From Gonatopus flavifemur (taxonomy: Eukaryota > Arthropoda > Insecta > Hymenoptera > Dryinidae): DNA of 64,000 nt. The position numbers and the translations under genes are program-made. The DNA is taken from positions 15,020,501 to 15,084,500 of the forward strand of contig JAFFJZ010000009.1 of NCBI GenBank assembly GCA_018340375.1, given 5' to 3'. The notes below the pieces were generated by a model that saw only the letters and a list, made by a program, of their open reading frames with translations, was not told the DNA's origin and made no database searches. Positions 5,191 through 41,094 of the stretch are shown here, piece by piece. Every line of letters begins with the position of its first letter. The stretch's first letter is position 1.

Positions 5191-7108
5191 TTAGAGAAGA
5201 AATTGCATCTGCTCGAGTACTTCTTCATTTTTGACTTTGTCTATCCATTTTATTCTGAGCATCCTCCTATAACACCCCATTTTCAAAGCTTCAAGTCTTC
5301 GTTGATCAGTTTTCCCCATTGTCCAAGTTTCGCAACCATATAATGCTGTGCTCCAAACATAACTTTCCAAGAATTTCTTCCTTACTTCCAAGCTTATATT
5401 TTTTGAGCCTAATAACTGTTCCTTTTGGTAAGAAGCCTGTTTCCCTTGTGCCATCCTTGCTCTCATATCTCTTCCGCTTTTGCCGTTTTCTGTTAGTATG
5501 CTTCCTAGACATTTGAATTCTTTCACCTGTTCAATTGCCTCGGTATCTATTTTGATTTTCGTTCTTCTAGTTGTTTTCGCTGCTGTACACATCATGAATT
5601 TTGTTTTGTCTTTATTTATATTCATACAATAGTTTTCCAATAATATTGTTCTCATAGAGTTGAGAATATTTTCTAACTCAGTACTCCTCGTGGCAAGTAT
5701 AGCTATGTGATCCGCGAATCTCAACATACTTATATTTCCTCCCTGAATCTGTAATTGCGATTGAATTTCCTCCTTCACTTCGTTCATTGCTTCTTGTATA
5801 TATAAATTGAAAATCAGTGGCGATAATGAACTTCCTTGTCTCATCCCTCTTCTTATTTGTGCTTCCCCTTCCTGATCCTCTATGTCTATTATTGCACTTT
5901 GATTCTTATATAATTCGTATATTATTCTTCTATCTTTATAATTTATTCTCACTCTCTTCAGGATCGCAAACATCTCCCCCCACTTCACATTATCGAAAGC
6001 CTTTTGTATATTCGCGAAACCTATGTACACAGATTTCTTCAGCGCTATCCTTTTCTCTATTACTGCCCTAAGTGCTGAAATTGCTTCTCGCGTTCCCCTA
6101 TTTTTTCTAAAATCAAACTGATCTTCTGCCAATCTACTCTCTATTTTATTTTCCATCCTCCTGTATATGATTCTGGTCAGTATTTCCGAAGCATTTGAAG
6201 TTAAACTGATCGTTCTGTAGTTCTCGCATCTGTCTGCCCCTTGTTTTTTCGGGATAGCGACAATTTTATTCTTCTCGGAATCTTCCGGTACTTCTCCTTT
6301 TTCGTACATATCTCTTATCAATGCAAACAGTGCGTCACGAGTTCCTTCACTGGAGGCTTTTATAAGGTCCGCACTTATGCCATCTATGCCTGGCCCTTAT
6401 TATTTTTCAATTCTTCCAAAGCCTTGTCGAATTCTGATCTCAATATCGAATCTCCCAATTCTTCCTTATCTACATCCTCCTCCTTCTCTGAAAGTGCTAT
6501 ATCATCGTTTCCTATATACAAGTCTCCCAAATGATTGATCCACTGTTCTATTTTCTCTTCCATTTTCATCAATTGTCGTCCTAGAGAGTTTCTCATCTTA
6601 TTGCTTCTGGATTTCATTCGGCCGAAAAATCTTTGAATAATCCTATATGCTTCATCTATTTTTCCTAAATGCAATCTTATTTCTTTTTCCTGACATTCCT
6701 CTTCTAACCACTGTTCTTTTGCTTTCCTTGATTCTCTTATTATTTTATTTCTCAATGATTTGTATCGTTGCTGGCCTTCTTGGCTATCATTATTCTCGTA
6801 TTTTCTTCTTTCTCTTATCAATTCTCAAATTTGTCCCGTTGTCCATGGGTTTTTAGGTTCTACCCCATTATTCTTCAAAATTTTATCCGCACATTCTCTT
6901 ATATTTCCCTTCATCTTTGTCCATCTCCTCTCTATTCCAAAGTCCTTCTCTTCTTGATCTCTCAATCTTTCACCCAACATTCTCTCGAATGCCTCATGTG
7001 TCTGTTTTTGCTTGAGGTTCTTCGTATTTCATCTTTTCTGCGTTTCCCTTTTCTTCTTCAGAGATTTGAATTTAAGGGTAAATTCCATCATCAACATATT
7101 ATGATCAC
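5191..7108 (-). pseudogene. Non-LTR retrotransposon reverse transcriptase (RTE-like), broken and catalytically dead
   Basis: This is the reverse-transcriptase half of a LINE. Its endonuclease half lies at 26268-27161, beyond a 19-kb insertion. The conserved RT block is at 5191-6321 and the N-terminal coiled, charged part is at 6384-6821. A frameshift near 6390 separates them. RT landmarks include IPKK, the FRKNRGT block and GMRQGSSLSPLIF. Two catalytic positions are altered: motif A reads FANIQKAFD, with N for the expected D (codon 6010-6012), and motif C reads FADH in place of the F/YADD core (5707-5715). The C-terminus stops early at EEVLEQMQFLL, so the usual downstream C-terminal region is missing. 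The resemblance to the insect multicopy 'craniofacial development protein 2-like' class is family knowledge. The RTE assignment is likely but not tested by phylogeny. Confidence 0.88.
7101..7108. other. Target-site duplication, left copy (ATGATCAC)
   Basis: The eight bases ATGATCAC precede the left terminus of the giant foldback element. The right copy, ATAATCAC at 26260-26267, differs at one base. Eight-base duplications are typical of hAT (and P) elements. Confidence 0.75.
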
Positions 7109-7944
7109 CAAGGCCAGGAATTTGGTTTCGTTAAAAGACAGAGAGAGGAGATAGGTGGGGCTAATATTTCTGATTGGTTGTTATGGATTTGATGATTATC
7201 CGTTTACGCAATCTAGTGAAGCAAGCAATAAGTATGAAAATAGATGAAAAGGAAAACCTTCAACCGGTAAGGGTGGGTTCTGCAGAATAATCGATTTGCA
7301 GAAATTTCATTTCGCCGAAAAGTCACTAACTTGAAGTTCGATGACGATGCGATACATTGGGAGGTAACGGTCCCGTGGGATTGTAAACACAGATGTCTCT
7401 GTAGTCGCGTTCAACGGAAGATTATAAACATTGCAGGAAGATATGATACCGAAGAATTCAGGGGCGTACCCAGCATCTAAGAGGGGGGTAGCTGGTCACC
7501 CCTTGATCCTTTCTTAACATGGATCACACGGACGGCAAGAGGGGAAGAGAAGAAGCTGCGTAAGCCCATGAAACAGATCGCATACATATATTCCACGAAT
7601 CATATATGCATGCGCACGTGATTACATCACGTAATTGGAAGAACCGATCATTTGTATACTGGGTAAAATGGACACAAGAATGACTGAGATGAAATTATAT
7701 GTAATGCAGAGAGGAGTTGATGCTGGAGGTGCGATGTTTATTCTAGTGCAGGGAACACTGGGAATAGAATACACAACGCGATATTATTGGAAAAATTCCA
7801 CATCAGAGGAGAAGGAATTGAGAAGGTTCGAACACGCATCGGAACCAACAATTTGTAGAAGCGACTCTCCGACTGTTTGAGGGTAAAATTACCTTTCGGA
7901 GTGAAGCGATTCATCCGTGTGGTTTCCTTTTGGAATGAGATTAG
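7109..7944. repeat. Outer unique segment of left palindrome arm
   Basis: This segment is the inverted copy of 25430-26259. In the 246-bp stretch I aligned (7635-7880 against 25485-25730) there are about 12 substitutions, roughly 5 percent. A TTG-started 81-codon frame is open in both copies, but without an ATG or family match I do not call it a gene. Confidence 0.85.
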
Positions 7945-9870
7945 ATGACGAAACCTCCACGAAAAATCCTAATTCGGTCGGTTTGAGCATATATCCAGAG
8001 CACGAGATAGTACGAACAACCCTCTTCTTTTCAGGGAATGATTTCCATTGGTGAAATAAGTAATTTGAGCTGTAATTCGTTCTGTGAGTAATAAAACGAC
8101 GATATCTGCACCAACAATCATAATTCGGTCAGTTAAAGCATGTATCCAGAGCACGTGGGCGTAAGAACAACCCTCTCCGTTTTAGGCGATGATTTTAATC
8201 GGTCGAATGAGTAAATTGACCTGTAATTTTTTCTATCGGTGATGAAACGATGAGATCTCCACTAGAAATCGTGATTTGGTCAGTTCAAGTATATATCCGA
8301 AGGACAAGGTCGTCCGAAGAACCCTGTTCTTTTTAGGGGATGATTCCGAATGGTAAAATAAGTGAATCGAGCTGTAATGTTTTCTATAGGTGATAAAACG
8401 ACGGGATCTTGACTAAAAATCGTAATTCGGTCAGTTCAAGCACATATCCGGAGCACAAGGTCGTCAGAACAACCCTCTTCTTTTTGGGGGATGGTTTTGA
8501 TGAATAAAATGAGAGAATTAACCTTTAATTTTTTCTATGGGTGATGAAACGACGAGATCCCCACTATGAATCCTAATCCAGACAGTTCAAGCATATATCC
8601 GAAGCACAAGGTCGTCAGAACAACCCTCTCCTGTTTAGGGGATGATTTTCATTGGTAAAATAAGTGCATCGAGCTGTAATTTTCTTTATAGGTGATGAAA
8701 CGACGAGATCTCCACTAAAAATCGTAATTCGGTCAGTTCAAGCATATATCTAAAGCACAAGGTCGTCAGAAGAACCCTGTTCTTTTTAGGGGATGATTCC
8801 GAATGGTAAAATAAGTGAATCGAGCTGTAATGTTTTCCATAGGTGATGAAACGACGGGATCTTGACTCAAAATCGTAATTCGGTCAGTTCAAGCACATAT
8901 CCGAAGCACAAGGTCGTCAGAACAACCCGCTTCTTTTTGGAGGATGATTTTGATGAATAAAATCAGAGGATTGACCTTTAATTTTCTCTATGGGTGATGG
9001 AACGACGAGATCCCCACTATGAATCCTAATCCAGACAGTTCAAGCATATATCCGAAGCACGAGGTCGTCAGAACAACCCTCTCCTGTTTAGGGGTTGATT
9101 CCGATTCGTAAAATAAGTACATTGACCTGTAATTTGTTCTATGGGTGATGAAACGACGAGATCTCCACCAAGAATCATAATTCGATCAGTCCAAGCATAT
9201 ATCCAACGCACAAGGTCGTCAGAACGACCGTCTCCTTTTGAGGGGATGATTTTCATTGGTGAAATAAGTGCATCGAGCTGTAATTTTTTCTATAGGTGAT
9301 GCAACGACGAGATCTTGACTCAATATCGTAATTCGGTTAGTTCGAGCATATATCCGAAGCACAAGGTCGTCAGAACAACCCTCTCCTTTTTGGGGGATGA
9401 TTCTCATAAATAAAATGAGTGAATTGCCCTGCAATTTTTTCTATGGGTGAGGAAACGACCAGATCTCCACTATGAATCCCAATCCAGACAGTTCAAGCAT
9501 ATATCCAGAGCACAAGGTCGTCAGGACAACCCTCTCCTGTTTAGGGGATGATTCCAATTGGTAAAATAAGTAAATTGACCTGTAATTTCTTCTATGGGTG
9601 ATGAAACGACGAGATCTGCTCTAAAAATTCTCATTCGGTCAGTTCAAGCATTCTTGTCGTTTCATCATCCATAGAAAAAATCACAGCTCAGTCCACTCAT
9701 TTCACCAACGAATATCACCTCCTAAAAAGGAGAGGGTTGTTCTTACGACCTTGTGCTTTGGATATATGCTTGAACTGGCCGAATGAGGATATTTAGTGCA
9801 GATCTCGTCGTTTCATCACCCATAGAAAGGATCACAGCTCAATTCACTTATTTTACCAATGAAAATCATC
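7945..9870. repeat. ~153-bp satellite array (sat1), left arm, with polarity flip at ~9651
   Basis: About a dozen monomers carry the words TTCGGTCAGTTCAAGCATAT, ACAAGGTCGTCAGAACAACC and GATGAAACGACGAGATC. Successive GTCAGTTCAAGC words fall near 8279, 8432, 8580, 8735 and 8889, so the period is about 150-155 bp. At 9650/9651 the array inverts head-to-head, and reverse-oriented monomers run to 9870. There the transposase remnant begins without any spacer. Several frames are open for 60-90 codons, but the monomer length makes them chance frames. Confidence 0.85.
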
Positions 9871-10855
9871 AATTGCTGACACTCCTGGCATACCACGTAT
9901 TATTCATTGTGCCGAAATTCCTGAGGGCAATGCCCAAAGAATCGCTGAATTCGTCGAGCAGGCCTCAACGAAGCTTTGGCCAGACGGGATTAGGAGACAA
10001 AACGTTTTGCTATTCATTTCTGACGCAGCACCGTATATGATGGCGGCAGGACGCTTCCTCAAAACGGATGACCATTATGACCGACTTGTTCATGTATCGT
10101 GTTTAGTTCATGGCCCACATCGTGTAGCTGAAGAAATCAGGGGGTCTTACAGACTTGCTAATGACGTTATTGCGGAAACAAAAGCAGTTTTCCTAAAATC
10201 TCCAAGAAGAAAACGTTTATTCTTGCAGATAGTACCGGGGGTTCCTTCACCTCCTAGGCCTATCATTACCAGATGGGGGGAGTGGTTAAAAGCTGCTTCT
10301 TATTATTGCAATAACTTTAGACAAGTTCAAGCAGTCATTCAACAATTAGAACCAGATACAGCGGCAGAAGATCGTGCGCAAGAATTATGGGAAAGTCCTA
10401 ACCTTCAACGCGAATTTGAATTCATCCATGAGCATTATTGCTGCATCACCGAAGCTATGAAGCGATGAGAAGAACGGGGGATGCCGCTTCGTGACTCTCC
10501 TCAAATCTTCACGCGGGTTGCTGCAACAATTCATAGAAATCCAGCCATTCCTGCAAATATCAAAGAAAGAATGCAAACCGTTCTTTTCAATAACGCTGGA
10601 TTTTCGACGGATTTGATTAATATTTGTCAAATTTTACAAGGAGAACAAAACCAAAATCTCCCAAATGAGTGGAACATGCCTGACATCAACTGTATGACTT
10701 ATGCACCTACGACATCATGCGAAGTTGAAAGATCATTTTCAAGTTTCAAGAGTATCTTGCGTTCAAATCGACAATCATTAACAACTAGAAACTTGGAGAA
10801 ATTTGTAGTCGTGTATTTTAATCGACTTGAATTCATCGGAGAACCTGAGTGGTAA
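9871..10855 (+). pseudogene. hAT-superfamily transposase, 5'-truncated, one in-frame stop
   Basis: The frame holds about 328 codons of the central and C-terminal part of a hAT transposase. Visible landmarks are FISDAAPYMMAAGRFLK (the D region), VSCLVHGPHRVAEE (the C-x2-H region), ITRWGEWLKAASYY (TRW motif) and the C-terminal dimerisation signature TTSCEVERSFSSFK. A TGA at 10466-10468, after EAMKR, is the only internal stop; CGA to TGA is a likely cause. The 5' part, including any BED finger, is missing: the frame starts exactly where the satellite monomer ends, with a stop just upstream at 9860-9862. The right arm has no counterpart. An AATAAA-like signal lies near 11228. It could be the element's own relic transposase or a captured piece; I prefer the former because the termini are also hAT-like. 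Confidence 0.85.
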
Positions 10856-11286
10856 AATCTATTCAATAATTTTAATGATTCACTGCTTTTTTTCCCCCTA
10901 GTAGAATAGTATATATTCTTGAATTCCATGGAATTTATAAAAATAGCACATCAAAATTGTACACACTATCGCTATCTTCATGAATTTAACTTATCCCGTT
11001 TCAGATAAAAATCGCTGCATGAACTGGTAATCTTTACACCACGGATTCCCACACAGGCCAGTGGAAATATTGAAATTACTTCATTTGAGCTGGCGAACCT
11101 CGTTCTCTCTTTTAACTTTCTTTCATTTAACATTTTTAATCGATTTTTCAATCACTTTGTTGTGCTACTGTGTTATATTGTGGGATATTATCGCATTTGA
11201 AATGTTCTATTACAATGTAATGGAAAATAAAATAGAATGTGATATAAATTGAAATGTTCTGGTACATAAATTCTTGTCTATTATTT
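10856..11286. other. 3' flank of hAT remnant, left-arm specific
   Basis: This AT-rich non-coding stretch follows the transposase frame and contains AAAATAAAATAG near 11226. It has no inverted counterpart in the right arm. The arms become colinear again at about 11287. Confidence 0.6.
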
Positions 11287-11836
11287 CTAAAACTCACCTG
11301 AGGTCATATTGATTTCAGGATCAGTGGTGGGTATTTGAACTTTGGTCGGTTGTACCTCCTTGGTTCGTAAGTTATGAACCTCAAAAAATATAGAGATTAG
11401 AGTTGGCGGACTTTGAAAAATCATACAGAATTGGCACAGACTAGGGCAAATTTCATCTGGATGGATGATTGTTCAAGGACCCCCCAAGGATATTCCCTGC
11501 AAGTTCGATCGTTTGTACCTCCTTGGATCGGAAGTTATGGACCTGAGAATATATAAAAATGAGAATTTTCGAACTTTGAAAAATCATACAGAATTGCCCC
11601 TGACTGGCGCTACGTTTATATAGATGAATTAGTGTTCGAAGACTTCCGAACGATATTCCCTGCGAGTTCCATCGTTCTTACCTCCTTGAATCGGAAGTTA
11701 TGAATCTCAGAATATATGAAAATGAGAATTTTCGAACTTTGAAAAATCATACAGAATTGCCCCTGACTGAGGCACTCTTTGCATAGATGAATTATTGTTG
11801 AGAGACCTCCGGAGGATATTCCCTGCGAGTTTCATC
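11287..11836. repeat. Arm junction plus short sat2 array (reverse polarity), left arm
   Basis: At 11287-11345 a unique junction containing ATATTGATTTCAGGATCAG is the inverted copy of 23060-23105. It is followed by about three ~163-bp sat2 monomers in reverse polarity, recognised by AAAATCATACAGAATTGCCC and CGTTTGTACCTCCTTGG. The array is interrupted at 11836 by a hAT MITE. Confidence 0.8.
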
Positions 11837-12411
11837 CAGAGTTGCCAGTTTGCGAGAATAAAAAATCTTCAGATTCAGGGTTGAAGTATCTTAAGATTTC
11901 TTCAACTTCCTTTCAAAAATCTTCAGAAATTCTTTAGGTGATCAAACATATAAATTTCATGCTGAATACTAATAAACCATATTTCAATGGTGAGGTGTCA
12001 TTTGTTCTCTTGTTCGTTTGTTGATGACTGATAACTTTCCCAATTTTCTGATATTTTCCCTGGGATAGCCTCAATGTCCCGACTTGATAATAATATCCTC
12101 AAAGAATTCATCCCGGGAGGATATATCCCGAAAGTTAGATTTTTCGACAAATTCTCATGGCTTGTCCTGAAGGATTTATGAGAAATCAGTGACATAGCCA
12201 ATCCAGTTTCTTCGGGGAATTGAGCTTTTGATACTCTGGCACATTCTTTTTTATTTTCAAAAATTATAAATCCTTGAAAATTCTTGAAATTTCCTCGGAA
12301 TTCTGAGAATATCTTTAGATTTTCATCCAATTTCTTGACGTCTTTAGAAAATCTTAGGAACAAATATTTTTCCTCAGATCTGAAGGAAAATCCTTAGACC
12401 TGGAAACTCTG
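11837..12411. mobile_element. hAT-type MITE, 575 bp, perfect 8-bp target duplication
   Basis: The ends are CAGAGTTGCCAG and, as reverse complement, CAGAGTTTCCAG; both fit hAT CARNG. The flanks GTTTCATC at 11829-11836 and 12412-12419 are identical 8-mers that occur only once in the intact satellite monomer. The interior is AT-rich with no coding capacity; the minus-strand frame at 11998-12363 is a chance ORF. Confidence 0.88.
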
Positions 12412-12419
12412 GTTTCATC

Positions 12420-12545
12420 GTTTGTACCTGCCAAATTTTAGGGTGAAGGGCCGCGGAAGGTTGTGATAGCATTTTTCTCGAAGTTTCAGACATCATACAG
12501 AGTTCTTCGATATTCTGAAGCCTTAACTCCCAAACCAAGGAAGGA
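12420..12545. repeat. Conserved spacer at sat2 polarity flip, left arm
   Basis: This unique ~120-bp segment contains GTGATAGCATTTTTCTCG and lies between oppositely oriented sat2 arrays. Its inverted counterpart at 22455-22560 is more than 90 percent similar by eye, which shows that the arms are true inverted copies and not independently built satellites. Confidence 0.8.
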
Positions 12546-15500
12546 CGAACGATGAAACTAGCAGGAGATATCCTTGAGAGGTCCTCCAACAACAATTCCT
12601 GCATAGAAGAGTCGCCCCAGCCAAGGACAATCCTGTATGATTTTTCAAAGTTCTCAAATCCTGATTTTTATATATTCTAAGGTTCATAACTACCGAACCG
12701 AGGGAGGACGAACGATGAAACTTGCAAGAGATATCCTTTCGGAATTCCTTGAACAATAATTCATCCACATGAAAGTTGCCCAGTCAGGGGCAATTCTGTA
12801 TGATTTTTCAGAGTTCTCAAATCCTCGTTTTTATATATCCTAAGGTTCATAACTTCCGAACCAAGGACGTAAAAACGATGAAACTTGCAGGACATATCCT
12901 TGGGAGGTCCTTGAACGACAATTCATTCAGATGAAAGTTGCCCCAGTCAGGAGCAGTTCTGTATGATTCTTCAAAGTTTGAAAACTCTCATTTTTGTATA
13001 TTCAAATGTTCATCACCTCCGAACCAAGGGAGTACAAACGATCGAACTCGCAGGTAATATCCTGGAGTGGCCCTTGAACAATTATTCCTCAATTTAAAAG
13101 TTGTCTCAGTCAGGGGCCATTCTGTATGATTTTTCAAAGTCCGAAAATCCTCTTTTCTATCCATTCTAAGGTGCATAACTTCCGAACCAAGGGGGTACAA
13201 ACGACAAATTTGCAGGGAATATCCTTCAGAGGTCCTTGAACAATGATTCTCCCATATAAAAGTTTCCCCATTCAGGGGCAATCCTGTATGATTCTTCAAA
13301 GTTTTCAAATCCTCATTTTTATATATTCTGAGGTTTGTAACTTTCGAACCAAGGAAGGACAAACGATGAAACTTGCAGGGAATGGCCTTGTGAGGTTCTC
13401 GAACAATAATTTATGCATATAAAAGTTGCCCCAGTCAGGAGCAATCCTGTATGATTTTTGAACTCCGAAATCCCTCATTTTTATATATTCTAAGGTTCAT
13501 AACTTCCGAAACGAGGAGGTACAAACGATGAAACTCGCGGGTCATATCCTTGGGAGGTCCTCGAACAATGATTCTCTCATATGGAAGTTCCCCCAGTCAG
13601 GGGCAATGCTGTATGATTTTTCAAAGTTCTTGAATCCTCATTTTTTTATATCCTAAGGTTCATAACTCCCGAACCAAGGGGATACAAACGATCAAATTCG
13701 CAGAGAGAATCTTTGGGGGGTCCTCAGACAATTATTCATCCATACAAAAGTCATCCCAGTCAGGGGAAATTCTGTATGATTTTTCACAGTTCGGAAATCC
13801 TCATTTTTATCTATTCTAAGGTTCATAACTCCCGAACTAAGGGGATACAAACGGATGAAGTCGCAAGGGATATCTTCGGGATAACGTTGAACAATAATTC
13901 CCCACATAAGAGTTCCCCCAGTCAGGGGCAATTCCGTATGTCTTTTCAAAGTCCTAACATTCTGTTTTTTATGTATCCTAATCCTCATGACTTCCGAACC
14001 AAGGATGTACAAACGATGAAACTTGCAGGAAATATCCTTGGGAGGTCCTAGAACAACAATTCATCCAGATGAAAGTTCCCCCAGTCAGGGGCAGTTCTGT
14101 AGGATTTTTCAAAGTTCGAAAATCCTCTTTTCTATCCATTCTCAGGTTCATAACTTCCGAACGAAGGAAATACAAACGACGAATTTGGAGGGAATATCCT
14201 TCAGAGATCCTTGAACAATGATTCTCCCATATGAAAGTTGCCCCATTCAGAGGCAATTCTGTATGATTCTTCAAAGTTCTCAAATCCTCATTTTTTCATA
14301 TCCCGAGGTTCATAACTTCCGACCCCAGGGGATACAAACGATTAACTCCACAGGGAGAATCCTTGGGGGGGGGGGGCCCTCAGACAATTCCTCATCCATA
14401 TAAAAGTTGCCCCAGTCAGGTGCAGTTCTGTATGGTTCTTCAAAGTTCGAAAACTCTCATTTTTATATATTCTAATGCTCATAACCGCCGAACCAAGGGG
14501 GTACAAACGATGAATTCCGCAGGTAATATCCTTGAGTGGTCCTTGAACAATTATTCCTCAATTTAAAAGTTGTCCCAATCAGGGGCAATTCTGTATGATT
14601 TTTCAAAGTTCGAAAATCCTCCTTTCTATCCATTCTGAGGTGCATAACTTCCGAACCATGGGGGTACAAACGACAAATTTGCAGGGAATATCCTTCAAAG
14701 GTCCTTGAACAATGATTCTCCCATATGAAAGTTGCCCCATTCAGAGGCAATCCTGTATGATTTTTCAAAGTTCGAAAATCCTCATTTTTATCTATTGTAA
14801 GGTTTATAACTCCCGAACCAAGGAGGGAAAAACGCTCAAACTTGCAGAGAATATCCCTTGGATATCCTTGAACAATAATTCCTCACAAAAAAGTTCCCTC
14901 AGTCAGGGGCGATTCCGTATGACTTTTCAAAGTTCTAACATTCTCTTTTTTATGTGTTCTCAGGTTCATGACTTCCGAACCAACGGGGTGAAAACCATGA
15001 AACTCGCGGAGGATATCCTTGGGGGTCCTTAAACAATAATTCATCCATATGAAAGTTCCCTCAGCCAGGGGCGATTCTGTATGATGTTTCAGAGTTCGAA
15101 AATCCTCATTTTTATCTATTCTAAGGTTCCTAACTCACAAATCAAGGGGGTCAAGACGATGAACAATGCAGGGAATATCTTTGGGACATCCTTGAACGAC
15201 AATTCCCCACATAGATGTCCCCCCAGTCAGGGGCAATTCTGTATGATTTTTCGAAGCTCTAGCATTCTCTTTTTCATATATCCCATGGTCCATGACTCCC
15301 GAACCAACGAGGTAGAAACGATGAAACTCGCAGGGAGAATCCTTGACAGGTCCTCGAACAATAATATATCCATATAAAAGTCGCCCCAGTCAGGGGCAAT
15401 TCTGTATGATTTTCCAAAGCTCGAAATTTCACATGTTCATATATCCCGAGGTTCATAACTCCCGGACCAAAGAGGCACAAACGATGAAACTCGCGGAGAA

Positions 15501-15766
15501 TATCCTTGAAAGGTCCTTGGACAATAATTGATGCATATAAGAGTTGCCTAGTCAAGGACAGTTCAGTGTGATTTTTCAAACTCCGAAAATCCTCATTTTT
15601 ATATATCCTAAGGTTCATAACTCCCGAACCAAGGATGTAAAAAAGGTGAAACTTGCAGGAAATATCCATGGGAGCTCCTTGAACAACAATTCATCCAGAT
15701 GAAAGTTGCCTCAGTCAGGGGCAGTTCTGTATGATTCTTCAAAGTTTGAAAACTCTCATTTTTATA
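12546..15766. repeat. ~163-bp satellite array (sat2), left arm, about 20 monomers
   Basis: Each monomer has GGTTCATAACTTCCGAACCA, ACAAACGATGAAACT, a GGAATATCCTTGGGAGG block and CAATTCTGTATGATTTTTC. The GGTTCATAAC words fall near 12681, 12843, 13172 and 13496, giving 162-165 bp. The array resumes at 17062 after the mariner. ORFs of 60-130 codons on both strands reflect the repeat and not genes. Confidence 0.88.
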
Positions 15767-15768
15767 TA

Positions 15769-17059
15769 CAGGTTGATTGAAAAGTTCCTGCGCTCACCAA
15801 GAGATAGCACTGCTAGCTCGAAACTTTTTTTTTCTCAAGTTGGTATATCTGTCCTGAGAACACATGCGAAGTTACAAGTCATTCTGTCAATTCATTCTTT
15901 GTTAACAAGCCATTTGGAGTTGACGTGTCATTGATTTTTCTTAATATGGAAAAAATTGAATATCGTGCGGTCATTAGATTCTTTGTTTTGAAGGGTTTAA
16001 AAGCAAAGGAAATTTATGAACAATTGTTAGAAGTGTATGAGGAGTTCTCACCTTCAAAACGCACCGTTGAATTTTGGGCTGGTGAATTTAAACGTGGTCG
16101 TACTAGCCTTGAAGACGATCCACGCGAAGAACGACCAAAAACTGCAACCACAGCAGAAATCATTGAGCATGTACATAATATGGTTAGTGAAGATCCAAGT
16201 TTGACTGAGCGTGAGATTGCTAATGCCATAGGCATCTCAGACGAACGAGTACTCCATATTTTACATGAAGAATCACGTATGAAAAAACTGTTTGGAAAGT
16301 TAGTGCCGCACACGTTAACAATTCAACAAAAACTGGATCGGAAACAAATTTCTCAGCGTAATTTGGAGCGTTTCAAGCAGAATAAAACCGACTTCTTGCG
16401 TCGTTTTATAACTATGGATGAGACTTGGATCTACCATCATGATCCTAAATTGAAACAAGAACGTTTACAGTGGACTGAAGCTGATTGTTCAGCTCCAAAG
16501 CAGGTGAAGTCACAACGATCAGCAAAGAAGGTTATGGCATCAGTTTTTTGGGATGCAAAAGGAATTTTGTTCATTGATTATCTTCAGAAAAGTAAAACAA
16601 TCAACTCCGGATATTACTGCAGCCTTTTGGATCAGCTGGATGAAAAAATTCGTGAGAAAAGACCTGGTTTAAAGAAGAAAAAAATCATTTTTCATCAAGA
16701 TAATGCACCTGCTCACAAAAGTGTTTTGACGATGGCTAAATTCAAAGAACTCAAGTACGAATTGCTTGAACATCCACCGTATTCGCCAGATTTGGCTCCT
16801 AGCGACTACTATCTCTCCAGAAATCTCAAAAAATTCCTTCGTGGAAAGCATTTTTCGTCGAATGAAGAGGCCATAGCAGCCGTAGACGGTTATTTTGCAG
16901 ACCTTCCGGAAAACCATTATAAGGATGGGATAAAATTATTGGAAGATCACTGGAACAAGTGTATTGAGCTTCTAAGAGATTATATTGAATAAAAAAATAT
17001 ATTTCGTAACAAAAACAGTATTCTTTCATTTCGAGCGCAGAAACTTTTCAACCAACCTG
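15769..17059 (+). mobile_element. Mariner transposon, 1,291 bp, complete with TIRs and TA duplication
   Basis: The left end CAGGTTGATTGAAAAGTTCC and the inverted right end CAGGTTGGTTGAAAAGTTTC form the start of ~28-bp terminal repeats. TA dinucleotides flank both ends (15767-15768, 17060-17061). The element interrupts a sat2 monomer of the giant palindrome and encodes one full-length transposase. Confidence 0.95.
15946..16992 (+). CDS. Mariner transposase, intact 348 aa
   Basis: It cuts and joins the mariner ends in the nucleus. The first ATG that fits the family is at 15946 (MEKIEYRAVIRF); the frame is open upstream to a GTG. The N-terminus carries two helix-turn-helix regions (about residues 1-110). 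The linker has LVPHTLT, matching the family's WVPHEL. The catalytic triad is complete: D158 in TMDETW, D252 in HQDNAPAH and D287 in SDYYL, with 34 residues between the last two (DD34D). YSPDLAPSD is present. The length equals that of active mariners (about 345-350 aa), with no stops or frameshifts. This is the only transposase in the window that could be functional. One oddity is SDYYLS where SDYHLF is common. Whether it is expressed cannot be told here. Confidence 0.95.
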   Translation: MEKIEYRAVIRFFVLKGLKAKEIYEQLLEVYEEFSPSKRTVEFWAGEFKRGRTSLEDDPREERPKTATTAEIIEHVHNMVSEDPSLTEREIANAIGISDERVLHILHEESRMKKLFGKLVPHTLTIQQKLDRKQISQRNLERFKQNKTDFLRRFITMDETWIYHHDPKLKQERLQWTEADCSAPKQVKSQRSAKKVMASVFWDAKGILFIDYLQKSKTINSGYYCSLLDQLDEKIREKRPGLKKKKIIFHQDNAPAHKSVLTMAKFKELKYELLEHPPYSPDLAPSDYYLSRNLKKFLRGKHFSSNEEAIAAVDGYFADLPENHYKDGIKLLEDHWNKCIELLRDYIE

Positions 17060-17061
17060 TA

Positions 17062-17384
17062 TTCTAATGTTCATAACCGCCGGACCAAGGGGGTACCATC
17101 GATTAAACTCGCAGGGAATATCCTTGGGAGGTTCTTGAACACTAATTCTCCCATGTAAGGGTTGCCCCAGTCAGGGGCAATCCTGTATGATTTTTCGGCC
17201 CTCTCAAATCCTCATTTTTATATATGCTAAGGTTCAAAACGTTCGAAACAAGGAGGTACAAACGATTCAACTTGCAGGGAATTTCCTTGGGAGGTCCTCA
17301 AACAATCATTCATCCATATAGAAGTTGCCCCAGTTAGGGGCAATCCTGTACGAGTTTTCAAAGTTCGAAAATACCTGTATGAAG
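17062..17384. repeat. sat2 array, left arm, inner end
   Basis: About two more forward sat2 monomers follow the mariner and end at about 17384. The next bases have no match in the right arm. Confidence 0.8.
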
Positions 17385-17654
17385 TTAGCCCCCGAAGTGG
17401 ACGAAAATTTTTTTTCATGGCATCCGCAACAACGTGGTTAGTACCTGATCGTACCACAGGAAAATTTCGTTTGTACTCCAAAAATGGAAAAGTGACAAGA
17501 GTTTGAAGAAATCGATCGCCCATGACCTTCACCGATCATGCTGAATCTCATGTTCAAGGTCTTGGGATGTAGATGATTCTACCACAAAGGATTTCGCGGA
17601 AAAGCCAAGGAGGTGACGTTAGGAGCGAAAAACTGGATTGAAATGAGAAAAAAT
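17385..17654. other. Unpaired centre of the giant palindrome
   Basis: This ~270-bp unique sequence separates oppositely oriented sat2 arrays. It has no inverted partner and no convincing gene. It would form the loop of a cruciform or hairpin. Its boundaries are approximate because monomers at the edges are diverged. Confidence 0.7.
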
Positions 17655-20600
17655 TTCCTTGCGAACTTGAAACAATCACACAGAGCTGGCCCTGACTGGG
17701 GCAACTCTCATATAGATGAATGATTGTTCGAGGACCTCCCAAGTACATTCCCTGCGAGTTCCATCGTTTCGACTCCGTTGGTTCGGAAGTCATGGACCTT
17801 AGAATATATAAAAAAGAGAATGTTAGAACTTTGAAAAATCGTACAGAATTGCCCCTGAATGGGGGAACGTTTATATGGGAGAATAATTGTCTGAGGACCT
17901 CCCAAGGATATTCCCTGCGAATTCAATCGTTTGCATCCCCCTAGTTCAGAAGTTATGAACCTTAGAATAGATCAAAATGAGGATTCCCGAAATTTGAAGA
18001 ATCATACATAATTGCCCCTGACTGGGGCGAGTTTCTTATGGGAGAATGATTGTTCCAGGACCTCCCAAGGATATTCCTCGCGAGTTTCATCGTTTGTACC
18101 GCCTTGCTTCGGGAGTTATGAACCTTAGGATATATAAAAATGAGGATTTTCGGAGTTCAAAAATCATACAGGATTGCTCCTGACTGTGGCAACTTTTATA
18201 TGCATGAATTCTTGTTCGAGAACCTTCCAAGGACATTCCCTGCGAGTTTCATCGTTTGTCCCTCCTTGGTTTGGAGGGTAAGAACCTTAGAATAGATAGA
18301 AATGGGGGTTTCCGAACTTTGAAAAATCATACAGAACTGCCCCTGACCGGGCAACTTTCATCTGGATGAATCATTGTTCAAGGATCCCCTGAGGATATTT
18401 CCTGCGAGTTTCATCGTTTGTACATCCTCGGTTCGGAAGTTATGAACCTCAGGATATATAAAAATGAGGATTTTCGGAATTTGAAAAAGCATACAGAACT
18501 GCACCTGACTGGGCAACTCTTATATGCATCAATTATTGTTCAAGGAACTCCCAAGGATACTCCCCGCGAGTTTCATCGTTTGTGCCCCTTTGGGTCGGCA
18601 GTTATTAACCTTAGGATATAAGAAAATGAGGATTTGAGAACTCTGAAGAATCATACGGAATTGCCCCTGACTGGGGCAACTTTCATATAGGAGAATCATC
18701 GGTCAAGGATCTCTGAAGGATATTCCCTCCGAATTCGTTGTTCGTATTCCCTTCGTTCGGAAGTTATGAACCTTAGAATGGATAGAAAAGAGGATTTTCG
18801 AACTTTGAAAAATCATACAGAATTGCCCCTGACTGGAACAACTTTTATGTGGGGAATAATCGTTCAATGACTTCTCAAGGATATTACCCGCAGGTTTGGT
18901 CGTTTTTACCCCCTTGGTTCAGCGGTTATGAACATTAGAAGATATAAAAATGAGAGTTTTCAACCTTTGAAGAATCATACAGAACTGCCCCTGACTGGGG
19001 CAACTTTTATATGGATGAGAAATTGTCTAAGGGCACCCCCAAGGGTTCTACCTGTGGGGTCAATCATTCGTATCCCCTTGGGTCGGAAGTTATGAACCTC
19101 AGGATATGAAAAAATGAGGATTTGAGAACTTTGAAGAATCATACAGAATTGCCCCTGGATGGGGCAACTTTCATGCGGGGAATCATCGTTCAAGGACCTC
19201 CCAAGGATATTACCTGCAAGTTCCATGGTTTGTCCCTCCTTGGTTCGGCGGTGATGAACATTAGAATATATAAGAATGAGAGTGTTTAAACTTTGAAGAA
19301 TCATACAGAATTGCCCCTGACTGGGGCAACTTCCATATGGGAGAATCATTGTTCAAGGATCTCTGAAGGATGTTCCCTCCAAATTCATCGTTTGTATTCC
19401 CTCCGTTCGGAAGTTATGAACCTTAGGATATATAAAAATGAGGATTTGAGAATTTTGGAAAATCATACGGAATTGTCCCTGACTGGGGCAACTTTGATAT
19501 AAGAGAATTATCGTTCGAGGACCTCCCGAAGATATTTCCTGCGAGTTTTATCGTTTGTACATCCTCGTTCCGAAGGTTATGGGCCTCAGAATATATGAAA
19601 ATGAGGAATTCCGGAGTTCAAAAATCATACAGGATTGCTCCTGACTGGAGCAACATTTTAATATGCATAAATTATTGTTCGAGAACTTCTCAAAGACATT
19701 CCCTGCGAGTTTCATCGTTTGTCCTTCCTTGGTTCGGACGTTATGAACCTCAGAATATATAAAAATGAGGATTTGAGAACTGTGAAAAATCATACAGAAT
19801 TGCCCCTGACTGGGGAACCTTTCAAATTTGAAGAACCATCGTTCAAGGACCCCCCGAGGATATTCCCCGCAAGTTTGTTGCTTTTACATCCGTGGTTCGT
19901 AATTTATGAACCTTAGGATATATAAAAATGAGGATTTTCGGAGTTTGAAAAATCATACAGAACTGCCCCTGACTGAGCAACTTTCAAATGCATCAATTAT
20001 CGTTCAAGGACCTCCCAAGCATCTTCCCCGCAAGTTCCATCATTCGTGCCACTTTAATTCGGAAGTTATGGACCTCAGAATATACAAAAATGAGAGTTTT
20101 CAAAATTTGAAGAATCATACAGAACTGCCCCTGATTGGGGCAACTTACATGGATTGTTGTTCAAGGAACTCTCAAGGGCATCCCCTCCAAGTTTCACCGT
20201 TTGTACATTCTTGGTTCGAGAGTTATGAACCTTAGGATATATAGAAAAGAGTATGTTGGGACTTATGTGGGGAATTATTGTTCAAGGATATCCTGATGAT
20301 ATCCCATGCAAGTTTAATCGTTTGTACCTCCTCGGTTCGGGATTTATAAACCTTAGAATAGATGAAAATGAGGATTCTCGAACTCTGAAAAATCATACAG
20401 AATTGCCCCTGACTGGAGCAACTTTTGTACGGATGAATAACTGTCTGAGAACTCCCAAAGATTCCCCCTGCGAATTCAATCGTTTGTATCCTCTTGGTTC
20501 GGGAATTATGAACCTCAGGATAACAAAAAATGAGGATTTGAGAACCTTGCAAAATCATACAGAATTGCCCCCGACTGGGGCAACTTCCATATGAGAGAAT

Positions 20601-22454
20601 CATTGTCCAAGGACCTCTGGAGGATATTCCCTGCGAAATTCGCGTTCGTACTCCCTTGTTTCGGAGTTTATGAACATCAGAATATATATAAGAATGAAAG
20701 TTTCCAAACTTTGAAGAATCATACAGAACTGCCCCTGACTGGGCAACTTTCATCTGGATGAATCATTGTTCAAGGATCCCCTGAGGATATTTCCTGCGAG
20801 TTTCATCGTTTGTACATCCTTGGTTCGGAAGTTATGAACCTCAGGATATATAAAAATCAGGATTTTCGGAGTTTGAAGAATCATACAGAACTGCCCCTGA
20901 CTGGGGCAACTTTCATCTGGATGGATTGTTATCCAAGGACCTCCCAAGAATATTCCCTGCAAGTTCCATCGTCTGTCCCTCCTTGGTTCGGAAATTATGA
21001 ACCTCAGAATATATAAACATATGAATTTTCGAGCTTCGAAAAATCCCACAGGCTTGCCCCTGACTGGGCAACCTTTATATGCATCAATTATTGTTCAAGG
21101 AACTTCCAAGGATACTTCCCGCAAGTTTCATCGTTTGTGCCTCTTTGGTTCGGCAGTTATCAACCTTAGAATATATGAAAATGAGGGTTTCCAAAATTTG
21201 AAGAATCATACCGAACTGCCCCTGACTGGGGCAACTTCCATCTGGATGGATTGTTATCCAAGGACCTCCCAAGAATATTCCCTGCAAGTTCCATCGTCTG
21301 TCCCTCCTTGGTTCGGAAATTATGAACCTCAGAATATATAAACATATGAATTTTCGAGCTTTGAAAAATCCCACAGGATTGCCCCTGACTGAGGCGACTT
21401 TTATATGGATAAATTATTGTTCGAGGACCTGTCAAGGATTCTCCCTGCGAGTTCCATCGTTTGTACCTTGTTGGTTCGGAAGTCATGAACCTTAGAATAT
21501 ATAAGAAAGAGAGTCTTAGAACTTTGAAAAGTCATACAGAACTGCCCCTGACTGGGGGACGTTTCATACAGGAGAATGATTGTCTCAGGACCTCTCAAGG
21601 ATATCCCCTGCAGCTCAATCGTTCGTATCCCCTGAGTTCGGGAGTTATGAACCTTAGGATATATAAAAACGGGGATTTGAGAACTCTGAAAAATCATACA
21701 GAATTGCCCCCGACTGGGCAACTTCATTCATGTGGATGAATTATTGTTCAAGGAATTCCGAAAGGATATCCCCTGCAAGTTCCATCGTTCGTCCCCCCTC
21801 GGTTCGGTAGTTATGACCCTTAACCCTTAGCTGCCACACTTCGCCAGTGTAACATAGCTGCCACACTTCGCCAGTGTAACATAGCTGCCACACTGGGGTC
21901 GATTATGACCCCAACTGTAAATGTACACCAAAGCCAAGCTATGCGTAAATATATCTTGGAAGAATTTTAGAGAGTACTAAAACTATTCTCATTTTCAGTC
22001 AAATGATTTCCCTAAAGGAAAATTGATTTCGAATTTGTGAAAAAGTTATGTGCGTAGCACACATGCATCGCTTCTTTTCATCGATCGATAGGTATATTTT
22101 CGCTTTTAAATGAAATTATCACTGTATCATGGAGGAGAATTATATGAAACATGGACAATCATGTCACGCTAGGGTGGAGTAAAGTGAAGAAACTCTAAAG
22201 TGGCGCAGGATTGCGCGAAGAGTTCGAATTATTGAGTTTCTTGATGGTAATTCAAGATTGAATCATGTTGGGGTCAGTCTGACCCCAGTGTGGCAGCTGA
22301 GGGTTGGAATATATAAAAATCAGAATTTGAGAACTTTGAAAAATCATACAGGATTGTCCTTGGCTGGGGCGACTCTTCCATGCAGGAATTGTTGTTGGAG
22401 GACCTCTTAAGGATATTCCCTGCTAGTTTCATCGTTTGTCCCTCCTTGGTTCGG
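17655..22454. repeat. ~163-bp satellite array (sat2), right arm, reverse polarity
   Basis: The monomers are the reverse complement of those at 12546-17384, for example CAGAATTGCCCCTGACTGGG. Without the MITE at 21824-22303, the array is about 4.3 kb, against about 3.5 kb in the left arm. The difference equals about five monomers, as expected from unequal exchange. Two ~130-bp stretches near 20890-21016 and 21215-21341 are almost identical, showing recent local duplication. Confidence 0.85.
21824..22303. mobile_element. piggyBac-type MITE, copy 1 (480 bp)
   Basis: The ends are CCCTTAGCTGCCACACT and, inverted, CCCTCAGCTGCCACACT. The left flank is TTAA (21820-21823); the right flank TTGG (22304-22307) looks like a decayed TTAA. 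It is closely similar to copy 2 at 59649-60102. A 27-bp unit starting AGCTGCCACACTTCGCC is duplicated in tandem at its left end, which explains the extra length. It has no ORF. Confidence 0.88.
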
Positions 22455-22560
22455 GAGTTAAGGCTTCAGAATATCGAAAAACTCTATATGATGTCTGAAA
22501 CTCCGAGAAAAATGCTATCACGACCTTCTGAGGCCCTTCACCTCCAAATTTGGCAGGTAC
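22455..22560. repeat. Conserved spacer at sat2 polarity flip, right arm
   Basis: Inverted counterpart of 12420-12545, sharing for example the reverse complement of GTGATAGCATTTTTCTCG. The polarity of flanking sat2 monomers changes here, exactly as in the left arm. Confidence 0.8.
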
Positions 22561-23103
22561 AAACGATGGAACTCGCAGGGAACTCCTCCGGTGGTCCCTC
22601 AACAATAATTCATCTCTACAAAAAGTGCCCCAGTCGAGGGCAATTCTGTATGATGTTTCAAAGTTCGAACATTCTCATTTTTATATATTCTGAGATTCAT
22701 AACCTCCGATTCAAGGAGGTAAGGACGATGGAACTCGCAGGGAATACCGTTCGGAAGTCTTCGAACACTAATTTATCTATATAAACGTTGCGCCAGTCAG
22801 GGTCAATTCTGTATGATTTTTTACAGTTCGAAAATTCTCATTTTCATATATTCTCAGGTTCATAACTTCCGATCCGAAGAGGTACAAACGATCGAACTTG
22901 CAAGGGATATCCTTGGGGGGTCCTTGAACAATCATCCATCCAGATGAAAGTTGCCCAAGTCTGTGGCAATTCTGTATGATTTTTCAAAGTCCGCCAACTC
23001 TAATTTTTATATTTTCTGAGGTTCATAACTTACGAACGAAGGAGGTACAACCGACCAAAGTTCAAACACTCACCACTGATTCTGAAATCAATATTACCTT
23101 AGG
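22561..23103. repeat. Short sat2 array (forward) and arm junction, right arm
   Basis: About three sat2 monomers in forward polarity are followed by the junction containing CTGATTCTGAAATCAATAT (23060-23103), the inverted copy of 11287-11345. In this arm, sat2 passes directly to sat1 with no transposase remnant. Confidence 0.8.
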
Positions 23104-25429
23104 TAAGTTTTGACGAAACCTCCACTCAAGATCCTAATTTGGTCAGTCCAAGCATATATCCAGAGCACAAGGTTGTCCGAACAACCACCTTCTTTTTAGG
23201 GGATGATTTTCATTGCTGAAATGATTGAATTGACCTGTAATGTGTTCTGGGGGTAGTGGAACGACGGGATCTCCACTCAAGATCCCAATTCGGTCAGTCC
23301 AAGCATATATCCAACGTACAAGGTCGTCAGAACAACCCTCTCCTTCTTGGGGGATGATTTTCATTGGTAAAATGAGTAAATCGAGGTGTAATTTTCCCTA
23401 TGGGCGATGAAACGACGGGATCTCCACTAGAAATCCCAATTCGGTCAGTCCAAGCATATATCCAAAGCACGACGTCGTAAGAACAACCCTCCACTGTTGA
23501 GGGGATGATTTTCGTTGGTCAAATGAGTAAATCGACCTGTAATTTTTCCTATGGGGAATGGAACGACGAAATCTGCACTCAAAATCCTTTCTCAGTCAGT
23601 TCAAGCATGTATCCAAAGCACAAGGTCGGCGGAACAACCCCCTCCCTTTGAGGGGATGATTTCGATTGCGTAAACTAAGTAAATTGGGCTTGAATCTTCT
23701 CTATGGCTGATGGAACGACGAGATCGTCACTGAAAATCATAATTCGGTCAGTTCGAGCATATATCCAGAGCACAAGGTTGTAGGAACAACACTCTCCTTC
23801 TCGGGGGATGATTTGGATTGGTAAAATGAGTGAATTGACCTGTAATTTTTCCGATGGGGAATGAAACGACGGAATCTGCACTCAAATTCCTAATACGGTC
23901 ATTTCAAGCATATATCCACAGCACAAGGTCGTCAGCACAACGCTCTTCTTTTTAGGTGATGATTTTGATTGGTGACATAAGTAAATTGGGCTGTAATTCT
24001 TCCTATGGGTGATGAAACGACGAGATCTCCACTCAATATCCTCATTTGGCAAGTTCAAGCATATATCCAAAGCACAAGGGCGTAAGAACAACCCTCTCCT
24101 TTTTAGGAGGTGATATTCGTTGGTGAAATGAGTGAACTGAGCTGTAATTTTTTCTATGGATGATGAAACGACAAGAATGCTTGAACTGACCGAATTAGTG
24201 GAGATCTCGTCACCTCATCACCCATAGAACGAATTACAGCTCAATTTACTCATTTCACCGATGAAAATCATCCCCTAAAAAAGAGAGGGTAGTTCGTACA
24301 ATCTCGTGCTTTGGATATATGGTTGAACTGACCGAATGAGAATTTTTAGAGCAGATCTCGTCGTTCCATCACCCATAGAAGAAATTACAGGTCAATTTAC
24401 TCATTTTACCAATTGGAATCATCCCCTAAACAGGAAAGGGTTGTCCTGACGACTTTGTGCTTCGGAAATATGCTCCAACTGACCGAATCACGATATTTAG
24501 TCAAGATCCCGTCGTTGCATCACCTATAGAAAAGATTACAGCTCGATTTACTCATTTTACCATTCGGAATCATCCCCTAAAAAGAACAGGGTTCTTCTGA
24601 CGACCTTGTGCTTCGGATATATGCTTGAACTGACCGAATTACGATTTTTAGTAAAGATCTTGTCGTTTCATCACCTATAGAACAAATCACAGGTCAATTT
24701 ACTTATGTTACCAATTGGAATCATCCCCTGAACAGGAGAGGGTTGTTCTGACGACCTTGTGCTCTGGATATATGCTTGAACTGTCTGGATTAGGATTCAT
24801 AGTGGGGATCCCGTCGTTTCATCACCCATAGGAAAAATTACAGGTCAATTCACTCATTTTATTAATCAAAATCATCCCCCAAAAAGAAGAGGGTTGTTCT
24901 AACGACCTTGTGCTTCGGATATGTGCTTGAACTGACTGAATTACGATTTTCAGTTGAGATCCCGTCGTCAATTCACCTATAGAAAAGATTACAGCTCGAT
25001 TCACTTATTTCATCATTCGGAATCAGCCCCTAAAAAGAACAGGGTTCTTCTGACGATCTTGTCCTCCGGTTATATACTTGAACTGACCAAATCACTATTT
25101 TTAGTAAAGATCTCATCGTTTCATCACCGATAGAAAAAATTACAGGTCAATTTACTCATTCGACCAATTAAAATCATCGCCTCAAATGGAGAGGGTTGTT
25201 CTCACGCCCACGTGCTCTGGATGCATGCTTGAACTAACCGAATTGTGATTTTTAGTGCAGATATCGTCGTTTCATCACTAACAGAACGGATTACAGCTCG
25301 AATTACTTATTTCACCAATGAAAATCTTCCCTGAAAAGGTGAGGGTTGTTCGTACGATCTCGTGCTCCGGATATATGCTCAAACCGACCGAATCAGAATT
25401 TTTCGTGGAAGTTTCGTCATCCAATCTCA
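23104..25429. repeat. ~153-bp satellite array (sat1), right arm, with polarity flip at ~24176
   Basis: Forward monomers run to about 24175 and reverse monomers from 24176. The flip sequence ACGACAAGAATGCTTGAAC is the inverted copy of the left-arm flip at 9641-9660. The inner block is about 1.07 kb here, against about 0.22 kb in the left arm, where the hAT remnant lies. Confidence 0.85.
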
Positions 25430-26259
25430 TTTCAAAAGGAAACCACACGGATGAATCGCTTCACTCCGAAAGGTAATTTTACCCTCAAACAGTCGGAGAG
25501 TCGCTTTTACAAATTGTTGGTTCCGATGCGTGTTCGAACCTTCTCAATTCCTTCTCCTCTGATGTGGAATTCTTCCAATGATATCGCGTTGCGTATCCTA
25601 TCCCCAGTGTTCCCTGCACTAGAATAAACATCGCACCTACAGCATCAACTTCTCTTTGCATTACATATAATTTCATCCCAGTCATTCTTGTATCCATTTT
25701 ACCCAGTATACAGATGATCGGTTCTTCCAATTACGTGATGTAATCACGTGCGCATGCATATATCATTCGTGGAATATATGTGTGCGATCCGTTTCATAAA
25801 CTTACGCAGCTTCTTCTCTTCCCCTCTTGCCGTCCGTTGAAACATACATGTTAAGAACGGATCAAGGGGCGACCAGCTACCCCCCTCTTAGATGCTGGGT
25901 ACGCCCCTGAATTCTTCGGTATCATATCTTCCTGCAATGTCATATAATCTTCCGTCAAACGCGGCTACAGAGACATCTGTGTTTACAATCCCACAGGACT
26001 GTTACCTCTCAATGTATCGCATTGTCATCGAACTTCAAGTTAGTGACTTTCCGGCAAAATGAAATTTCTGCAAATCGATTATTCTGCAGAACCCACCCTT
26101 ACCGGTCGAAGGTTTTCCTTTCATCTATCTTTATACTTATTGCTTGCTTCACCAGATTGCGAAAACAAATAATCATCAAATCCATAACAATCAATCAGAA
26201 ATATTAGCCCCGCCTATCTCCTTTCTCTGTCTTTTAACGAAACAAAATTCCTGGCCTCA
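25430..26259. repeat. Outer unique segment of right palindrome arm
   Basis: Inverted copy of 7109-7944, ending with CCTGGCCTCA at the element terminus. It has roughly 5 percent divergence where aligned. Confidence 0.85.
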
Positions 26260-26267
26260 ATAATCAC
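26260..26267. other. Target-site duplication, right copy (ATAATCAC)
   Basis: ATAATCAC follows the right terminus and differs by one base from ATGATCAC at 7101-7108. In the LINE reading frame it covers the SDH motif of the endonuclease. Confidence 0.75.
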
Positions 26268-38056: not shown

Positions 38057-38447
38057 TGGAATCGACTGAACTGTTGGGTATGGAGATTCTACGGAAAGTT
38101 TTGTTTGTAGATGTCGTTTGGAAAGGATCGAGTTTTTCTTGAGGTATTATTGTTCTATTGTAGGTTGATGAATCGTCAGACAATATTTCTGAATCGTAGT
38201 AACTGTAAGTTGGGCTTTGGTCGGGGGAGAAACTCAATATGTCTTCAATGTTTCTGATGAGGTTGGGTCCCAAATGTCTGAGACTGATGAGTTTGGAGTT
38301 GAGATAGGTGAATTTATGGGAGTTGTTGGGTCATTTGGGTTTTGTGGAAATTGTGTGGAGTTGACATTTGGGTTTGGGTTGGATGGGATTGATAGGTTTT
38401 CGTCCTCCAGGGTTATTTCATGAGTCAGAGTAGGAAGTGGACTGGGT
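37983..38447 (-). pseudogene. pol linker between RNase H and integrase, Pro/Ser/Asn-rich
   Basis: Overlapping minus-strand frames (37983-38273 and 38234-38482) encode low-complexity Pro/Ser/Asn-rich protein linking RNase H to the pre-integrase region. The frame changes show at least two small indels. No catalytic motif is present. Confidence 0.6.
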
Positions 38448-40027: not shown

Positions 40028-40039
40028 CTTATTTAACTG

Positions 40040-40770: not shown

Positions 40771-41094
40771 CGGCGACTGTTTGATGGGTCTCCGCTCACC
40801 GATTCGCTGAGGTTCCGATGAACGCGGTTGGAGTTTAAAGATTGAGATCGTTGTAAGGGGGAGTGATTTCGGATGCTATAACGTGCTGGAGATTGACGGG
40901 GTGAATAGTCTGGACGATCCGGTGGTGGAGTTCAAGATCTCGATTGAAATCGCGAACAACGAGTTTCTTCCGTTCGAGAATAAGGATTTCTCTCTGGACG
41001 AAATTCTCGTCCTTCCCTGGATCTTTCGTAATTCATCTGTGTATCGGAATCTTCTCGTCAGGGATAGTATGCGCGATCTATGTCTCTCGATTCT

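Follow-up and report, generated by a model that had tools for sequence, protein, structure and literature searches.

What lineage of transposons could have produced a palindrome of about 19 kb with arms that are largely filled by satellite DNA? This question is raised by a 64,000-nucleotide stretch of the genome of the dryinid Gonatopus flavifemur (assembly GCA_018340375.1, contig JAFFJZ010000009.1, positions 15,020,501 to 15,084,500; hereafter the window), which contains such an element at 7109-26259. Foldback elements of this general form have been puzzling, since many of the described copies lack a transposase and their lineage has been guessed from the length of the target duplication (e.g. 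Tetris). The observations presented here indicate that the window element is very probably a decayed, non-autonomous copy belonging to a hAT transposon family with a palindromic (foldback) structure. Accepting this, the hAT lineage would have reached the foldback form separately from Galileo of the P superfamily, with the transposase gene lying within the arms.

Architecture of the palindrome and its insertion site

The element is delimited by terminal modules, termed T, at 7109-7946 (plus strand, starting CAAGGCCAGG) and 25419-26259 (minus strand, ending CCTGGCCTCA). The left module and the reverse complement of the right one show 94.5% identity (790 of 836 aligned bases, with 40 transitions and 6 transversions), and self-alignment of the element likewise pairs 7111-7946 with 26257-25419 at about 94% (93.9%) across 841 columns. 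The self-alignment also recovers three further mirrored pieces of the arms, each at 93%: 9652-9871 with 24176-23957, 11289-11816 with 23111-22584, and 12430-12680 with 22554-22304. The arms are filled in mirror order by two satellites, A of 151 bp and B of 163 bp, whose arrays are oriented along the element as A+, A-, B-, B+, centre, B-, B+, A+, A-. Similarity between A and B could not be detected, and local comparisons among T, A, B, the spacer, the centre and the region downstream of the gene gave low scores only. Mirrored A monomers taken in register from both ends (8 pairs, from 11 monomers on the left and 8 on the right) have a mean identity of 0.89, compared with 0.80 for permuted pairings, of which 0 of 10,000 reached the observed value. 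Furthermore, the best match of the outer A monomers in the opposite arm is the mirrored one (7947/25269, 8098/25118, 8250/24973, 8401/24816, 8551/24665 and 8702/24515, at 0.89-0.93), and for those at 7947, 8098 and 8702 no other monomer of either arm matches better. Some reshuffling has affected the B arrays, the main ones of which are about 75-77% identical in simple register.

Proceeding inwards from the left T, an A array in plus orientation (7947-9651) is followed by the remnant of an inverted A array (9652-9871, minus, 93% to 23957-24176), a transposase relic (9872-10855, plus), the region downstream of the transposase (10856-11288, plus), which both arms retain in better copies, a short B array (11289-11836, minus), a 94-bp spacer between the inverted B arrays (12430-12523, plus) that is found in other copies, and the main B array (12524-15768, plus) with its continuation (17060-17372, plus). 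The palindrome centre (17373-17661), found also at the loci C271, C348 and C358, measures 289 bp, close to the approximately 270 bp of the original prediction. The right arm comprises the main B array (17662-21822, minus), the B array end with the spacer (22304-22554, minus, 93% to 12430-12680), the short B array (22555-23111, plus), the inner A array (23112-24176, plus), which adjoins B directly, the right-arm gene having been lost, and the outer A array (24177-25418, minus). Three foreign insertions are each confined to one arm. The left arm carries a hAT-like miniature inverted-repeat transposable element (MITE; 11837-12411, CAGAGTTGCCAG...CTGGAAACTCTG) with the exact 8-bp duplication GTTTCATC on both sides, and a mariner (15769-17059, plus) with an open transposase frame and a TA duplication; the right arm carries a TTAA-flanked MITE (21824-22303, its sides being TTAA and TTGG), a second copy of which lies at 59654-60104. 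Thus, the original description of the arms as inverted copies holds for the mirrored ends and satellites, but they are not simple copies, given the one-arm insertions and the relic at 9872-10855, to which nothing in the right arm corresponds.

Assembly of palindromes and satellites is difficult, and the contig of C358 starts inside an element, which might point to a hairpin read or a collapsed repeat. Nevertheless, the arms diverge by 6-9% outside the main B arrays and bear the three arm-specific insertions, which disfavours such an artefact, and the same architecture occurs at other loci; we therefore rejected this explanation as scarcely credible, and judging from these sequence features the palindrome is real in the assembly.

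The element is bracketed by the target duplication ATGATCAC (7101-7108) and ATAATCAC (26260-26267), which agree at 7 of 8 positions, while no other length of 2 to 15 bp fits. As had been proposed from the letters of the window, the insertion lies within a long interspersed nuclear element (LINE) and the 8-bp duplication has a single mismatch: joined with one copy of the duplication, the flanks read ...CKTYPSADIDSDHNMLMMEF... and restore a conserved LINE motif, the joined LINE (...RFRDQVKNCKTYPSADIDSDHNMLMMEFTLKFK...) being colinear with relatives such as P0158 (RFRNQVKNCKTYPGADIDSDHNMMLMKCNLKFK). The left copy encodes SDH of the LINE endonuclease. SDH occurs in 40 of the 57 LINE relatives, in 38 of these within the motif of the joined flanks; the relatives were sought with a query read across a frame change, which the window LINE has just upstream of the insertion. 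This comparison of LINE proteins takes the place of a genomic empty site. Given that the mismatch in the right copy turns SDH into SDY, the left copy looks ancestral.

The transposase and the hAT assignment

The relic at 9872-10855 derives from a DUF659-type hAT transposase, of which it retains the C-terminal two thirds with one internal TGA, the N-terminal third being lost. It is 72% identical over 326 residues to the DUF659-type protein P0001 (residues 177-502), the nearest of the relatives encountered, whose predicted structure matches Hermes; the modelled fold of the family's transposase is accordingly that expected of a hAT enzyme. An alignment of 49 sequences revealed that D158, D227, C253, H256, W311 and W314 are invariant and E462 nearly so; D158, D227 and E462, together with C253/H256 (C..H), W311 and W314, are what we take to be the hAT catalytic and motif set. 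In profile comparisons P0001 scored against Dimer_Tnp_hAT (E 0.0023) and DUF659 (E 1e-7), both short of the curated cut-offs, and PF05699 is recorded in a precomputed list for 2 of the 120 homologs listed. The two relic halves searched alone against Pfam retrieved no family, and when solved structures were searched by sequence, using the transposase alignment as query, five weak matches emerged with no transposase among them. No P-type transposase with a THAP domain, the hallmark by which Galileo and the P superfamily would be recognised, was found in the family. Pattern searches of viral contigs gave four matches for transposase relatives, none of which was confirmed, and 0 matches for T, A and B; the B pattern likewise had 0 matches in prokaryote genome contigs.

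The terminal inverted repeats of hAT elements start with YARNG. In line with this, the 20 main-type ends begin with (C/T)AAGG (14), TGAGG (4), GAAGG (1) or AAAGG (1), and T157-type ends (see below) with (C)GGTAAGGG or a near variant. Together with the match of the relic to a protein of Hermes-like predicted structure, these observations bear out the earlier assignment to hAT. The same prediction had seen only one transposase relic; its hAT affinity stands, but better copies carry the gene in both arms.

An alternative is that the ends derive from another superfamily with 7-10 bp duplications, either P/Galileo-like or Mutator-like as in Tetris, with the hAT gene as a mere passenger. Among P-superfamily foldbacks Galileo is the best known, and it indeed makes 7-8 bp duplications; the published placement of Tetris in Mutator was based on duplication length. 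However, the gene, where present, lies in the same place and orientation in every mapped copy, irrespective of whether one arm has it or both; at C176 the gene's own 5' region directly adjoins the outer 160 bp of T, without satellite A; the target sites across the family follow nTnATnAn, a preference that suits hAT; and the other recurrent cluster of open frames (C166 and C358) sits in a nested guest with its own 640-bp inverted repeats and no Pfam match above cut-off. Hence, we consider a passenger gene very unlikely and retain the hAT reading.

A family of palindromic copies

The left T (7109-7944) has at least 42 matching stretches in the same assembly, some elements contributing two or more, so that the further loci with the same termini anticipated by the original prediction do exist. 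As 40 of 45 candidates were scored in the T search and 85 of 338 in a second genome search, locus counts are lower bounds; the loci studied comprise 20 T stretches and three more. Module mapping yields a canonical arm consisting of T (0.84 kb), A+, A-, a 5' region of about 1 kb, the transposase gene (roughly 500 codons, directed towards the centre), 433 bp of downstream sequence, B-, the 94-bp spacer, B+ and the centre, the opposite arm being its mirror image. This arm is present on both sides at C1 (17.9 kb, within 571828-590350), C392b (20.5 kb) and C271 (15.8 kb, within 1070983-1087423). With C348 (47.7 kb between its ends, enlarged by insertions, its middle lying outside the sample), C358 (its left end past the contig) and C155 (its left side outside the sample), which also have transposase sequence on both sides, six loci show convergent transposase sequence. 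Long inverted repeats with internal tandem repeats thus make up most of the element, as befits a foldback, a term that denotes a structure rather than a lineage. Short T-A-A-T elements occur at C401 (5.2 kb), C357a (4.2 kb) and C343 (3.7 kb). By eye the A+/A- junction is alike at 14 of 15 junctions compared, which argues for a single origin of the inner inversion. The window copy is a deletion derivative, given that its left gene starts at residue 177 of 502 exactly at the end of the A- remnant and that in its right arm B is followed immediately by A.

Two T ends and two genes facing each other could also result from a pair of independent hAT insertions in opposite orientation. However, T is restricted to the outer ends in the module-mapped copies, a single duplication brackets the window copy with the LINE motif closing when its flanks are joined, and the same spacer and centre recur at several loci; we regard this explanation as largely refuted and exceedingly improbable compared with a palindrome that moved as a unit.

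Different 8-bp duplications were indeed found at further loci of the genome, yet they are convincing (7/8 or 8/8) in only 5 of the 10 elements with both ends examined: 8/8 at C392b, C348 and C46, and 7/8 at C1 and the window element. Among 89 mismatched left-right pairs used as a control (which excluded the C1 right end, where there is a small change, C46 and C78a), 7/8 arose four times and 8/8 never.

The arms of a single element tend to be homogenised, as suggested by sequence comparisons within and between elements. When each of 20 T ends was compared with 29 others, its own mate proved to be the nearest in 15 cases (C348 left T being represented by its inner 587 bp only), and in a tree of T ends the two ends of an element form a cherry in 8 of 10 elements (support 0.21 for C357a and 0.7-1.0 for the others); statistically, the ends do not count as independent observations. 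Similarly, the transposase and downstream region of an element's own arms are identical at 0.992, 0.993 and 0.944, compared with 0.904-0.941 between elements. In C1, the left arm from 5849 to about 7450 is about 7% divergent from its mirror, the same level as is found between elements; from 7500 to 9471 the divergence is less than 1% (482 of 482 positions identical downstream of the gene); the T ends are alike again (98%). A sharp divergence step of this kind, seen in one element, is the expected footprint of gene conversion.

Arms might instead be alike through fresh re-palindromisation, in which a folded-back arm is copied through as a hairpin and takes the place of its partner. C271 would fit this, with arms that are 98.2-99.6% identical in T, the 5' region, the gene and the downstream region, 97% identical in the short B array, and have a T truncation and a gene deletion in common. 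At C1, however, wholesale re-copying predicts uniform identity rather than the step from about 7% to less than 1% and the renewed likeness of the T ends at 98%, and we consider re-palindromisation unlikely as the general cause, preferring conversion between arms.

Several observations weigh against a family of mobile palindromic hATs. There is no convincing duplication at C401 (5/8), C357a (4/8), C271 (2/8) and C78a (none by eye), and C343 shows 6/8 at a self-complementary site, its two flanks being inverted copies of each other (91% identity across the 564 bp adjoining the element, the similarity continuing beyond). Duplication-less copies may be products of recombination between elements, by analogy with Galileo as described in the available part of PMC2775673. 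The two ends of the window element and those of C78a are not nearest mates and form no cherry. Gene sequence is in one place only at 5 of 11 gene loci. No catalytically intact transposase was seen among the copies examined, and the gene is broken or partial in most arms: C1 has frame changes in both arms, the left gene of C348 is split over 21 kb, the right gene of C392b lacks approximately residues 178-273, both genes of C271 lack the N-terminus, and the left sides of C155 and C358 hold gene pieces only. The sole uninterrupted full-length frame (522 codons, right arm of C358) shows by eye N at D158 and C at W314, two residues that do not vary across the 49 aligned sequences, and was rejected as an intact transposase for want of the D158 equivalent and one conserved tryptophan. 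With every transposase seen catalytically damaged, current mobility is not demonstrated.

In light of these observations, we propose that a transposase from some past or unseen copy would bind both T ends, excise the whole palindrome and reinsert it, creating the 8-bp duplication. Where the long inverted repeats break, the opposite arm could serve as the source for repair, thereby homogenising the arms, while the satellites would expand through unequal exchange or slippage. Recombination of A arrays between arms might remove the middle, giving T-A-A-T derivatives of 3.7-5.2 kb; the window copy has lost its right-arm gene, and its left gene is cut to the C-terminal two thirds. A more far-reaching and doubtful, if conceivable, extension is a class of autonomous palindromic hATs with a full transposase gene per arm, the arms being kept alike by conversion in the manner of Y-chromosome palindromes; it is made less likely by the fact that only C1 and C348 retain most of the gene in both arms, both broken. 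If it were true, a damaged gene could be repaired from its own mirror copy, and satellites could grow and seed new satellite DNA. One genome holding long and deleted forms side by side, along with a visible conversion tract, makes testable the origin of foldback arms, a possible protection of transposons from mutational decay by inverted arms, and the way in which satellites grow within such arms.

Certain loci depart from this architecture. The C343 element (963770-968044) lies in the middle of a larger imperfect palindrome of internally repetitive flanking DNA. A sub-type, T157, in which T starts at about position 157 with (C)GGTAAGGGTCGATTC and the flanks are unrelated, is seen at C46:2863012-2884800, with the exact 8-bp duplication AAATTGAC, C78:915274-919921, C357:727842, C370:5677214, C186 and C323; compared with the main type, its end seems to be displaced by 157 bp. 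T-end pairs or single ends, some of them just named, lie at C357 (727842), C370, C373, C385, C323, C78 (1786792), C35, C68 and C1 (17801249), of which C35:1115093, C1:17801249 and C68:4690548 match only the outer 140-160 bp of T and might represent MITEs or the termini of different hAT forms. At C176:3307883-3317893 there is a single transposase gene. Its 5' region has grown into 319-bp tandem repeats and directly adjoins T (outer 160 bp, 83%), satellite A being absent from the junction. The locus is possibly a pre-palindrome form of the family; the claim that it is an ordinary single-gene hAT was dropped, as the 10 kb examined revealed no second end. At C358:668-7941 and C166:3826163-3830043 an insert occupies the same point downstream of the gene (approximately 680 bp, 89%); the nested guest of the two loci is 97% identical over 2.5 kb, with its inverted repeats and open frames, and Pfam gave one weak match, under its cut-off, for the frames of the C358 guest.

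Relation to known elements and other features of the window

The usual hAT element has a single gene and short terminal inverted repeats. With Hermes and other hATs the present family has in common the transposase fold (as predicted), the DDE-type motif set, the C..H motif, the 8-bp duplication and YARNG-like ends. Drosophila Foldback (FB) has satellite-built long inverted repeats around a middle and a longer target duplication, FB-NOF being associated with a Mutator-like transposase. Foldback is mentioned in the accessible text of PMC4079207 and PMC2775673. The nearest systems in the literature, as far as the available portions of the papers go, are Galileo and Tetris (PMC3573991, PMC4168063, PMC2775673, PMC3688188, PMC4079207, PMC9659126). 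Galileo of Drosophila resembles the present family in several ways: its long ends are inverted and contain tandem repeats, its arms have taken up additional internal sequence, its duplications measure 7-8 bp, the ends of a copy are closer to each other than to those of other copies, and its copies at inversion breakpoints have no matching duplications (accessible parts of PMC3573991, PMC4168063, PMC2775673). Galileo repeats are also reported to act as arrays of binding sites (PMC3688188). Within the same limits, the longest Galileo of D. willistoni is 9.0 kb, with arms of 4.2 and 4.7 kb and tandem repeats of about 140 bp, and lacks a transposase segment (PMC4168063), and in D. mojavensis the copies with the longest ends are never the nearly complete ones (PMC3573991). 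Galileo differs in having a P transposase, whereas the present family is of the hAT type, with arms of up to about 9-10 kb and transposase sequence in each arm of several copies. Tetris/DAIBAM of the Drosophila virilis group is likewise a foldback with tandem repeats of about 220 bp in its arms, 8-10 bp duplications and a link to satellites, but it has no known transposase and was placed in Mutator by its authors, according to the text available of PMC4079207. Among the open-licence papers listed, none was seen to describe a hAT foldback whose arms consist of satellites or carry one gene apiece.

The window contains open frames that resemble other mobile elements, all on the minus strand. The open frames at 58899-60928 presumably belong to a second, different hAT relic, with the TTAA-flanked MITE copy noted above between them; two of these frames, when tried, matched no Pfam family. 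Those at 36402-42219 may belong to a retrotransposon, based on their resemblance to reverse transcriptase, integrase and gag-like proteins, and those at 47299-48335 may encode a piggyBac-type transposase. A 40-bp tandem array (46738-47185) adjoins the piggyBac-like frames.
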